Assembly: GCF_007858535.1 (NCBI RefSeq)
Contig: NZ_CP040174.1
Location: 2,666,001-2,730,000, forward strand
DNA: 64,000 nt
Reading direction: 5' to 3'
From: Arthrobacter sp. UKPF54-2
Lineage (GTDB): Bacteria > Actinomycetota > Actinomycetes > Actinomycetales > Micrococcaceae
Numbering within the stretch: the stretch's first letter is position 1; each line of letters begins with the position of its first letter. The translations under genes and the position numbers were made by a program. Positions 29,143 through 32,159 of this stretch are shown here, in pieces. Under the pieces are notes generated by a model. The model was given only the letters and a program-made list of their open reading frames with translations, was not told the DNA's origin and did not search any database.

Positions 29143-31340
29143 CCGGGGCGGGCTCAGCCGCCGCCGGGAACACCAGCACCGCCGTCGAGAAGCACACCGT
29201 CCCCGGCGAGAAGCCGGCGCTGCCGGCCGCCTACCAGGGCCTGGGCTACCACGAGCTCAACGCCATGCTGAACCTGTACGGCCCCAACGGCGAAATCCAG
29301 TTCGAGGCCGATCGCGAGGCCGCGCACCAGTACTTCCTGCAGCACGTGAACAACAACACTGTGTTCTTCCACGACCTCGAGGAAAAGCTCGATTACCTCG
29401 TCAAGAACGAGTACTACGAGCGCGAAACCCTCGACCAGTACACGATGAACTTCATCCGCGAGCTCTTCAACCGCGCGTACAAGAAGAAGTTCCGCTTCGA
29501 GACGTTCCTCGGCGCGTTCAAGTTCTACACCTCCTACACGCTGAAGACGTTTGACGGTAAGCGCTTCCTGGAGCGCTACGAGGACCGCGTCTGCATGGTG
29601 GCCCTGCACCTGGCCCGCGGCGACGAGAAGCTCGCCACCCAGATGGTCGACGAGATCATCGAGGGCCGCTTCCAGCCGGCCACCCCGACGTTCCTGAACG
29701 CCGGCAAGAAGCAGCGCGGCGAGCTGGTCTCCTGCTTCCTGCTCCGCATCGAAGACAACATGGAATCGATCGGCCGGTCCATCAACTCCGCGCTGCAGCT
29801 CTCCAAGCGCGGCGGCGGTGTCGCGTTCGCGCTGACCAACATCCGCGAGGTCGGCGCGCCGATCAAGCAGATCGAGAACCAGTCCTCCGGCGTCATCCCC
29901 GTGATGAAGCTCCTCGAGGACAGCTTCTCCTACGCCAACCAGCTCGGTGCCCGCCAGGGTGCCGGCGCGGTGTACCTGCACGCCCACCACCCGGACATCT
30001 ACCGCTTCCTGGACACCAAGCGCGAGAACGCGGACGAGAAGATCCGCATCAAGACCCTCTCGCTCGGCGTCGTGATCCCGGACATCACCTTCGAGCTGGC
30101 CAAGAAGGACGAGGACATGTACCTGTTCTCGCCGTACGACGTCGAAAAGGTCTACGGCATGCCGTTCTCCGACGTCTCGGTCACCGAGAAGTACTACGAG
30201 ATGGTGGACGATTCCCGGATCAAGAAGACCAAGATCAAGGCGCGCGAGTTCTTCCAGACCCTCGCCGAGATCCAGTTCGAATCCGGTTACCCGTACATCA
30301 TGTTCGAGGACACCGTAAACCGGGAAAACCCGATCGACGGCAAGATCATCATGTCCAACCTGTGCTCGGAGATCCTCCAGGTTTCGCAGCCGACGACGTA
30401 CCACGATGACCTGTCCTACGACACCACCGGCAAGGACATCTCCTGCAACCTGGGCTCGATGAACATCGCCAAGGCGATGGACTCGCCGGACTTCGGCCTG
30501 ACCATCGAGACGGCCATCCGCTCGCTCTCGGCCGTGTCGGACATGTCCAACATCACCTCGGTGCCCTCGATCGCCCGCGGCAACGACCAGAGCCACGCGA
30601 TCGGCCTCGGCCAGATGAACCTGCACGGCTACCTCGCCCGCGAGCGGGTCCACTACGGCTCCGAAGAGGGCCTGGACTTCACCAACATCTACTTCTACTC
30701 GGTGGTGTTCCACGCGGTCCGCGCCTCGAACCTGCTGGCCATCGAGACCGGCCAGACCTTCGGCGGTTTCGAGAAGTCCAAGTACGCGTCCGGCGAGTTC
30801 TTCGACAAGTACACCGACCGGGAATGGGTCCCGCAGACGGCCAAGGTTGCCGAGCTGTTCAAGAACATCCACATCCCCACCCAGGATGACTGGCGCGAGC
30901 TGAAGGCCTCCGTCATGGAGCACGGCATCTACAACCAGAACCTGCAGGCTGTTCCGCCGACCGGCTCGATCTCCTACATCAACAACTCCACCTCCTCGAT
31001 CCACCCGGTGGCGTCCAAGATCGAGATCCGCAAGGAAGGCAAGCTGGGCCGCGTGTACTACCCGGCCCCGTACCTGACCAACGACAACCTGGAGTACTAC
31101 CAGGACGCGTACGAGATCGGCTACGAGAAGGTCATCGACACCTACGCCGCTGCCACGCAGCACGTGGACCAGGGCCTGTCCCTGACGCTGTTCTTCAAGG
31201 ACACCGCCACCACGCGCGACATCAACAAGGCCCAGATCTACGCCTGGAAGAAGGGCATCAAGACCATCTACTACATCCGTCTCCGCCAGCTCGCGCTGGA
31301 AGGGACCGAGGTGGAAAATTGTGTCTCGTGCATGCTTTAA
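29112..31340 (+). CDS. nrdE: Class Ib ribonucleotide reductase alpha subunit
   Basis: The 742-residue catalytic subunit that reduces ribonucleoside diphosphates. The active-site region [17 protein letters not shown], the finger-loop segment SNLCSEIL and the C-terminal redox pair CVSC (last five residues CVSCML) are intact. There is no intron or intein interruption. The TTG at 29112 gives the start [12 protein letters not shown] with a GGAAG-type site just upstream; the first ~35 residues are variable, so the start is moderately sure. Instead of nrdF, a homing-endonuclease gene follows 30 bases later. Confidence 0.95.
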
Positions 31341-31360
31341 TCAACCGAAATCGGTTGATT
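31339..31360 (+). repeat. Perfect hairpin at the nrdE stop codon
   Basis: AATCAACCG pairs with CGGTTGATT around an AAAT loop, overlapping the last bases of the nrdE stop (31338-31340). The ribosome binding site of the endonuclease gene begins immediately after it. It may attenuate readthrough into the inserted gene or hide its ribosome binding site. Confidence 0.6.
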
Positions 31361-31370
31361 AGGTGAAGTG

Positions 31371-32159
31371 ATGGAAACGACGACGACGGGCGGCTTGGTC
31401 TACGGCATCCGGCTTAGGCGGGAGGTCGAGTACCGCTATGTCGGTATCACGACAAAGACGGCTAGTCGTCGTTTCCATCAGCACCTTCGCGTGGCAGCCG
31501 AGGGTCGTAAGACGCCCTTCTACGACTGGCTGCGCAAGCACGACCCGGCGGACGTCATCGCGGATGAGTTGGACTGGATTGAGGGGTTGCGCGAACTGGG
31601 CCAGGCCGAGATCGAGTGGATCAGCTACCTGCGATGCGAGGGGGACCGTCTGCTGAACGTTGCGGACGGCGGCCTAGGACCGACCGGCGTCGTCTGGACG
31701 GAAGAACAGCGCGCAGCCGCCCGGTGGAGGTCAACGGGGCGAAAAGGTCTCAGTAGGCCCGGTGCCGCCAATCCGTTCTACGGAGGCAAGCACAGCACCG
31801 AGCAGCGTCTGAAGTGGGCGGAGGACCGCAAGGGAACGTATTCGGGAGCGGACAATCCGAATTTCGGAAAGTTCGGGCCCCATCATCCAGGGTTCGGTCA
31901 CTCGTTGACAGAGGATGTCCGCAAGGCCCTCTCGGAAGCAAGGAAAGGTGCCGGCAACCCAAACTTTGGGAAGAAGGCCAGCGCGGAAACCCGTGCGAAA
32001 ATGTCAGCAGTACGGAAGGGCCGTCCGATGCCTTCCAGCCAGCGCAACGCTCACACCAGACATCACACCAACAAAGGCCTAGAGAAAGCCGACTGCAAGT
32101 ATTGCGTCGAGGACTCAGCCAAACCCAGTCTCTCTTCAGAAAGCGAGTCGGAGTCATGA
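31371..32159 (+). CDS. GIY-YIG homing endonuclease with NUMOD3 motifs, inserted in the nrd operon
   Basis: A 262-residue free-standing homing-endonuclease-like protein. The GIY-YIG nuclease domain (residues ~8-105) shows Y11-G12-I13, Y23-V24-G25, Arg33/Arg34, the probable catalytic Glu80 in [11 protein letters not shown], and LLNVADGG near 95. Downstream are at least three NUMOD3-type DNA-binding repeats of the pattern G-x2-NP-(F/N)-(Y/F)-G followed by a basic helix ending [25 protein letters not shown] and [12 protein letters not shown]. Codon use is less GC-biased than nrdE/nrdF. The stop overlaps the nrdF start (ATGA). Phage T4 mobE occupies the same nrdA-nrdB junction. No transmission evidence is available from sequence alone. 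Confidence 0.88.

Follow-up and report, generated by a model that had tools for sequence, protein, structure and literature searches.

A predicted free-standing GIY-YIG homing endonuclease gene at the nrdE-nrdF junction of actinobacterial chromosomes and phages

Organization of the nrdHIEF locus

The stretch of DNA analysed here, 64,000 nucleotides of the chromosome of Arthrobacter sp. UKPF54-2 (contig NZ_CP040174.1, positions 2,666,001 to 2,730,000) and referred to as the window, contains a class Ib ribonucleotide reductase operon, nrdH-nrdI-nrdE-nrdF, with a gene of 262 codons between nrdE and nrdF which is a predicted free-standing homing endonuclease gene (HEG; 31371..32159). All features described lie on the forward strand and are numbered from the first nucleotide of the window. 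The glutaredoxin-like nrdH (28369..28614; PF00462, E 3e-17) and nrdI (28648..29142; PF07972, E 1e-47) are followed by nrdE for the alpha subunit (29112..31340, start codon TTG), and downstream of the HEG lies nrdF for the beta subunit (32156..33130, start codon ATG). Both subunit genes are complete, with 1255 bits against TIGR04170 (cut-off 750) and 490 bits against TIGR04171 (cut-off 355) respectively, as an initial reading made from the letters without database searches (the sequence-only reading) had held. The reading frame of the HEG begins with ATG 31371, 30 nt 3′ of the nrdE stop, or alternatively with GTG 31368, and not at 31339 as first proposed, a position which falls inside the nrdE stop codon (31338-31340). 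It ends with TGA at 32157-32159, and the overlap of this stop with the nrdF start in an ATGA tetranucleotide (32156..32159) had been recognized correctly. The stop/start overlap is found in 20/20 intact copies of the genus set described below, two of them being 8-nt overlaps read off the sequence; the nrdF starts of three loci (L048, L051 and L069) were set by eye. Directly after the nrdE stop lies a perfect inverted repeat with a 7-bp stem, TCAACCGAAATCGGTTGA (31341..31358), and repeats resembling it come after nrdE in many alleles that carry the gene and in some that do not. The HEG is present as a single copy in the 3.5-Mb genome (one contig), which also holds just this one NUMOD3 match, and its nearest named relatives are from Arthrobacter.

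The predicted endonuclease

The assignment of the protein is based on profiles, conserved residues and predicted fold. NUMOD3 (PF07460) matches the window protein with E 4e-16 and 59 bits (cut-off 20.4), the best stretch comprising residues 176-212 (31896..32006), and all 20 aligned members of the family share this match. The three or more NUMOD3 repeats of the sequence-only reading are recognizable on visual inspection; with Pfam, two stretches have E<=1 and a single one E<=0.01. The predicted GIY-YIG nuclease domain covers residues 5-103 (31383..31679), and the residues Y11, Y23, R34, E80 and N96, all named beforehand, are together with H38 invariant in the 20 aligned sequences, Y11 being nearly invariant in a larger alignment set. 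We take these six residues to be catalytic by analogy with I-TevI. PHROG 314, a homing endonuclease family, matches with E 2e-18, while the sole NCBIfam match is TIGR01453, 'group I intron endonuclease', with E 3e-9 and 37 bits, below its cut-off of 56. Ranking of the predicted fold places I-TevI first, which assigns the domain to the GIY-YIG fold. Foldseek alone gave nothing at E<=0.001 (best 1mk0, E 0.022), and the sole match of a sequence-profile search of the PDB was again I-TevI, E 0.048. Towards the C-terminus a conserved His/Cys motif, H228...H232...C242xxC245 (32052..32105), in which H232, C242 and C245 are invariant and H228 nearly so among the 20 sequences, might constitute a zinc site.

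Relatives in other genomes

Loci from named genomes show that the position behind nrdE is kept across actinobacterial families: 34/34 come after nrdE and 33/34 have nrdF next, in Arthrobacter, Pseudarthrobacter, Paenarthrobacter, Glutamicibacter, Cellulomonas, Sanguibacter, Isoptericola, Promicromonospora, Cryobacterium, Microbacterium, Agromyces, Rhodococcus, Speluncibacter and Mycolicibacterium. In a family sample 20/295 genomes match, 16 of them strongly and each of these at nrdE-nrdF, the four weak matches being at loci without nrdE or nrdF; in a class sample 5/394 genomes match, 5/5 behind nrdE. The named-genome, family and class samples overlap, and the window's own genome is included. 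Four of 60 genomes match in a genus that is mycobacterial as judged by NrdE (mostly 90-95% identical to the named Mycolicibacterium locus), and all four copies, one of them decayed, stand behind nrdE, three closely and one after ~116 bp; the mycobacterial locus L071 likewise has the HEG after nrdE. No nrdF lies within ~1.5 kb behind nrdE at 18 HEG-less loci of this genus (41 bp only at one of them). As the HEG thus follows nrdE in mycobacteria without an adjacent nrdF, nrdF is not required at the site and the end of nrdE is indicated as the target. In accordance with the conservation of such an anchor, the residues CVSC are encoded just upstream of the nrdE stop at 43/43 nrdE ends next to copies from outside the genus set (including phages, with some rows being near-copies), as they are in the 22 HEG-carrying genomes of the genus set.

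In the HEG tree the copies of Mycolicibacterium, Rhodococcus and Speluncibacter nest among those of Micrococcaceae, which suggests, without establishing it, a transfer of the HEG between Micrococcaceae and mycobacteria or rhodococci. A corresponding placement of one Micrococcaceae row together with mycobacteria/rhodococci is rejected by the NrdE tree (p 0.0097).

A separate observation concerns four genomes of the mycobacterial genus (G948, G950, G952 and G957), in which the nrdE match is split near residue 188 with ~1.2 kb in between, in one long frame, which looks like an intein.

Empty and occupied junctions

The sequence-only reading had proposed to compare the junction in close relatives, and most genomes of the genus indeed lack the HEG at the same junction. 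Among 150 genomes, one per species and including the window's own, nrdF is matched in 147 and the junction is readable in 146 (three genomes are without nrdF match and one match is partial): 20 junctions carry the HEG, 115 are empty and 11 hold a different insert. The site therefore exists in empty and occupied form outside any intron or intein, as is characteristic for a free-standing homing gene. For the following comparisons the occupied set comprises 22 genomes, these 20 and two further ones, and the empty set 114 (the 115th, L260, is not included), reduced to 112 where one short sequence and one with a stop were dropped; flank and tree comparisons include ten other inserts instead of 11 (that of L259 in genome G032 left out).

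Empty spacers of 88-145 bp with a conserved hairpin separate nrdE and nrdF. A perfect stem of at least 9 bp is present in 110/114 empty junctions, and one of 13-14 bp in 96/114, vs 1/22 occupied alleles for the stem of at least 9 bp, where the first 60 nt after nrdE were inspected, a shorter stretch and not a strict control. One pair of the stem is G-C in 93 and C-G in 16 of the 114 empties, broken in 1 and off-pattern in 4, with the change from G-C to C-G being compensatory. Three empty spacers were folded, and their folding energy is 4.6-5.1 standard deviations below that of shuffles; the hairpin that separates the two genes, for instance in L003, L007 and L029, is very stable. A AGGGGATG-type site precedes nrdF in 112/114 empties vs 0/22 occupied alleles, and in 8/22 occupied alleles the strict AGGGGATG form stands before the HEG instead, as if the HEG had taken over the ribosome site of nrdF. 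The argument for coupled translation of nrdF is purely anatomical, consisting of the stop/start overlap and the lost AGGGGATG-type site.

The second insert, found at the nrdE-nrdF junction of L015, L017, L091, L099, L102, L105, L114, L143, L166, L183 and L259, measures ~580-670 bp and is unrelated to the HEG. It is scattered on the tree as well, its ten tips requiring 10 changes (9.8 on average after shuffling; L259 left out). Nine of ten inserts, L015 being the exception, share an alignable core that contains a predicted hairpin, in which the changes appear compensatory on visual inspection. Five inserts contain an open reading frame of 32 aa under strong constraint, with a pooled ratio of nonsynonymous to synonymous polymorphism (pN/pS) of 0.016, and four others one of 69 aa with a pooled pN/pS of 0.21. 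No Rfam family reaches gathering level in the 10 loci, and two sub-threshold matches to symR (E 0.25-0.28) were dismissed; three of the peptides have nothing above cut-off in Pfam or NCBIfam, and a viral or phage match of the insert was not found. The 69-aa protein is matched in 15/245 family genomes at E<=0.01, three times at nrdE-nrdF.

Scattered presence and linked flanks

On a tree of nrdE and nrdF built without the junction, the 22 occupied tips require 21 changes, with a shuffled mean of 20.8 and at least 15 changes forced by the starred branches. Presence of the HEG is thus scattered as if at random, and for 19/22 occupied genomes the closest relative in nrdEF is an empty one. The linkage of flanking sequence with occupancy, measured as the fixation index Fst of third positions in 54 blocks of 10 codons, of which six were subjected to 1000 shuffles, has a median of 0.009 and a maximum of 0.086 outside the three junction blocks. 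At the junction itself the last 10 codons of nrdE (31308..31337), which end in CVSCML and are the proposed target anchor, reach 0.243 (0/1000 shuffles), with codons -20 to -11 at 0.001 (361/1000), and the first 10 codons of nrdF (32156..32185) reach 0.564 (0/1000), followed by a weak 0.096 for codons 11-20 (0/1000). The strong link with occupancy is confined to a short stretch, beyond which a faint signal extends into nrdF.

Single codons illustrate this link. Codon 5 of nrdF is GTA/GTG in 22/22 occupied alleles vs GTC in 112/112 empty ones, and codon 4 is AAA (AGA once) vs AAG. At the position seven residues from the NrdE end, Asn occurs in 15/22 occupied vs 9/112 empty alleles, with 13 Asn/Gly and 0 reverse combinations among pairs of an occupied genome and its nearest empty relative; with the other insert Asn occurs there in 4/10. 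In mycobacteria the same residue is Asn beside 4/4 intact copies (three from the sampled genus and L071), Gly beside the decayed copy and Asn in 3/18 HEG-less genomes, and beyond the genus set it varies beside copies (Asn in 20/43 rows). These marks can be either co-converted flanks or protective changes of the target. As in the phages described below, the pattern resembling co-conversion is read from standing variation.

Selection and decay

The median ratio of nonsynonymous to synonymous substitution rates (dN/dS) of the HEG within the genus is 0.106 (186/190 pairs) and that of the nuclease domain 0.059 (168/190 pairs). Its median synonymous divergence (dS) is 1.02 vs 0.27 for nrdE and 0.38 for nrdF, and its GC content at third codon positions (GC3) 0.72 vs 0.95 and 0.92, a contrast which may in part reflect the codon bias of the nrd genes. 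Purifying selection fits a homing gene and a host gene alike. The sequence-only reading had regarded a gene fixed in all relatives, with normal codon use and purifying selection, as speaking for another role; the purifying selection is there, the fixation is not, and GC3 departs from that of the neighbours. Taken together, the computational checks which that reading proposed favour its interpretation. Broken copies are observed in 2/22 cases of the genus set, by a stop at the codon of Y11 and by a frameshift, and in 4/34 of the named-genome set, two of these being the same genomes.

In L074 and L229, which are probably the same organism twice, the altered frame of the frameshifted copy continues into nrdF as one open frame of ~585 codons.

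Phage counterparts

Arthrobacter phage Talia1610 encodes nrdH-nrdI-nrdE-GIY-YIG-nrdF, with the HEG as gp111, while in its relatives Racecar and Mimi a 90-bp spacer takes the place of the HEG within the same operon; this spacer shows an inverted repeat by eye, unrelated to the hairpin of empty bacterial sites. Between Talia1610 and Racecar, nrdE has 9 mismatches over its first 1989 nt and 31 over its last 150, all of the latter within 130 nt of the end, and nrdF has 25 over its first 300 nt (the last at 276) and 6 over the following 300. Mimi and Racecar differ in the same four stretches and the final 351 nt of nrdF by 7, 0, 1, 6 and 21 mismatches. The divergence of Talia1610 on either side of the junction resembles what a conversion tract around the insert would leave.

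Altogether 22 phage records match, and of the five phages examined among the matches listed, one has the HEG at nrdE-nrdF, one (Gordonia phage GodonK, L198) between polA and nrdF, and three elsewhere. In IMG/VR 5/8 loci found have the HEG behind nrdE, including contigs of 158.6 and 37.6 kb; three loci are short, at 4.6-5.3 kb, and the nrd genes of two among them (L188 and L189) are host-like. Phage Phendrix (L199), related to GodonK, has no GIY-YIG gene at polA-nrdF. In an ungapped comparison of these two phages, identity of polA drops to random in the last third, maybe by an indel, and nrdF is 96-100% identical per 150 nt with 91% in the last interval.

Discussion

The anatomy of the locus, the coexistence of empty and occupied junctions, the scattered presence, the short linked flanks and the phage pair of an occupied and an empty junction with its tract-like divergence together suggest that the HEG belongs to a lineage of chromosomal free-standing, intronless GIY-YIG homing endonucleases anchored to the 3′ end of nrdE, a prediction to which we assign a probability of roughly 0.8. 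From these patterns we infer binding, cutting and immunity, how the DNA is exchanged, and any influence on the subunit balance of the reductase, as follows. The protein would bind a long target which takes in the conserved CVSC codons at the end of nrdE as well as adjacent sequence, and its GIY-YIG domain would cut the empty allele. Repair of the cut by the cell from an occupied allele, which may arrive by phage, transformation or another route, would copy the HEG with a short nrdE/nrdF flank and remove the hairpin spacer. Owing to the replaced spacer and the differences in nearby codons, the new allele would resist cutting, and nrdF would then be translated from a site within the 3′ end of the HEG, with stop and start overlapping.

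Several observations weigh against this interpretation. The GIY-YIG profile PF01541 matches the window protein with E 0.007 and 17 bits, under the Pfam cut-off of 22.6, and 12/20 aligned members at E<=0.01, so that of the two profiles foreseen by the sequence-only reading NUMOD3 matches and the one for the nuclease domain stays below its cut-off; such a cut-off is a convention, though, and the assignment is carried by the catalytic residues and the fold predicted to be closest to I-TevI. With one genome per species the sample contains no near-isogenic bacterial pair. The link with occupancy extends weakly further into nrdF, at codons 21-30 (Fst 0.059, 0/1000 shuffles) and again at codons 41-50 (0.086, 3/1000). 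In the HEG tree an approximately unbiased (AU) test leaves an alternative to the nesting of Mycolicibacterium, Rhodococcus and Speluncibacter unrejected (p 0.37). The HEG of the phage pair is just ~32% identical to the window protein, and in the final 351 nt of nrdF Talia1610 and Racecar differ by 55 mismatches, a mosaic which exceeds one tract and shows that other recombination or divergence also occurred. The distant relative in GodonK does not follow nrdE; nrdF as the target, a candidate weakened by the mycobacterial loci without adjacent nrdF, has in this phage gene a relative beside nrdF only. Finally, divergences of HEG and nrdEF correlate, with a Mantel r of 0.77 for 20 occupied genomes and 0.51 for 17 after removal of one lineage; long jumps are therefore infrequent, and either most exchange takes place locally or losses account for part of the pattern.

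The latter correlation is also what an old, vertically inherited gene would leave, lost in many lineages and no longer mobile, as are the separate HEG clades that several families keep and the decayed copies. We nevertheless consider such a history improbable. It would have to accommodate the ~21 changes on the nrdEF tree, most of them forced, and the purifying selection on intact copies, and each loss would require that the hairpin (stem of at least 9 bp in 110/114) and AAG GTC at codons 4-5 of nrdF (112/112) be restored, which is seemingly possible only via recombination with an empty allele. That the gene has been domesticated, tuning nrdF expression or otherwise serving the host, is less probable still: purifying selection, the invariable overlap with nrdF and the loss of the AGGGGATG-type site in 22/22 occupied alleles would suit such a role, yet 126/146 readable junctions of the genus lack the HEG despite having nrdE and nrdF, disrupted copies are tolerated, and in mycobacteria the HEG still follows nrdE despite the absence of an adjacent nrdF. 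A group I intron or intein, to which only the sub-threshold TIGR01453 match would point, is contradicted by the intact flanking reading frames, as the sequence-only reading had concluded, with no Rfam match near the HEG (four gathering-level matches in the whole window, all elsewhere), and has next to no probability. Cargo of a prophage is also unsupported, since nrdE and nrdF flank this junction in those genomes of the genus, too, in which it is empty; a systematic search of the window for phage genes was not part of this comparison.

Beyond the homing endonuclease reading as such, a broader model appears unlikely at present, if less so than the alternatives above. The junction could be a three-state site, with the hairpin spacer, the nrdE-anchored HEG and the second small element being swapped as whole alleles. 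The HEG might shuttle between chromosomal and phage nrdEF, mark the allele it leaves behind by the change of Gly to Asn before CVSC and an altered nrdF start, and turn the translation of nrdF from hairpin-separated into overlapping, by which a selfish gene would determine how an essential enzyme is wired.

Phages are the best-known carriers of free-standing homing endonucleases; the lineage described here resides in a core chromosomal operon of several actinobacterial families. The many natural empty and occupied alleles, together with phage counterparts at the junction, make the spread of a homing gene among chromosomes testable, as well as the question whether such a gene, by taking the place of the intercistronic spacer, can alter the wiring of an essential enzyme of two subunits. 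A literature search, with subscription journals mostly outside its scope and therefore weak as evidence of novelty, found no earlier report of this HEG.

Comparison with known systems

I-TevI, the GIY-YIG endonuclease of the T4 td intron, is intron-encoded, whereas the window HEG is free-standing between uninterrupted host genes. General background is available (PMC3943268). According to a GIY-YIG survey, most bacterial homing members are found within or beside prophages and transposons (PMC1564403). Phage T4 has 12 free-standing endonucleases, whose cut sites are typically hundreds to thousands of bp away from the gene (PMC2988022). SegA-G among them share with the HEG the GIY-YIG type, the intergenic location and, segD excepted, the orientation of the neighbours, and the seg genes move by intronless homing (PMC2988022); they are, however, phage genes with distant cut sites, while the strongly linked flanks observed here span tens of bp in bacteria. 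Endonucleases near phage ribonucleotide reductase genes have been reported (PMC3653736, PMC10448857), and Hef is placed with mobE at T4 nrdA/nrdB by the title of a reference in PMC2988022. The parallel with mobE drawn by the sequence-only reading holds for the position between the genes for the large and the small subunit; a stop/start overlap with a host gene is common to both as well (PMC2988022). MobE is, though, an HNH enzyme which targets nrdB (PMC2988022), thus an analogue and not a relative, in a phage-borne class Ia system, and it overlaps the upstream nrdA instead of the downstream subunit gene. Gp111 of Talia1610 shares with the window HEG the nrdE-nrdF junction, the NUMOD3 match and the catalytic residues, and differs by its ~32% identity and by a start inside the nrdE end without a spacer before it. 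By analogy, the window HEG would operate like the seg/mob type, set apart by its seat in a chromosomal operon, its anchor at nrdE across families and phages, and the hairpin that it replaces.

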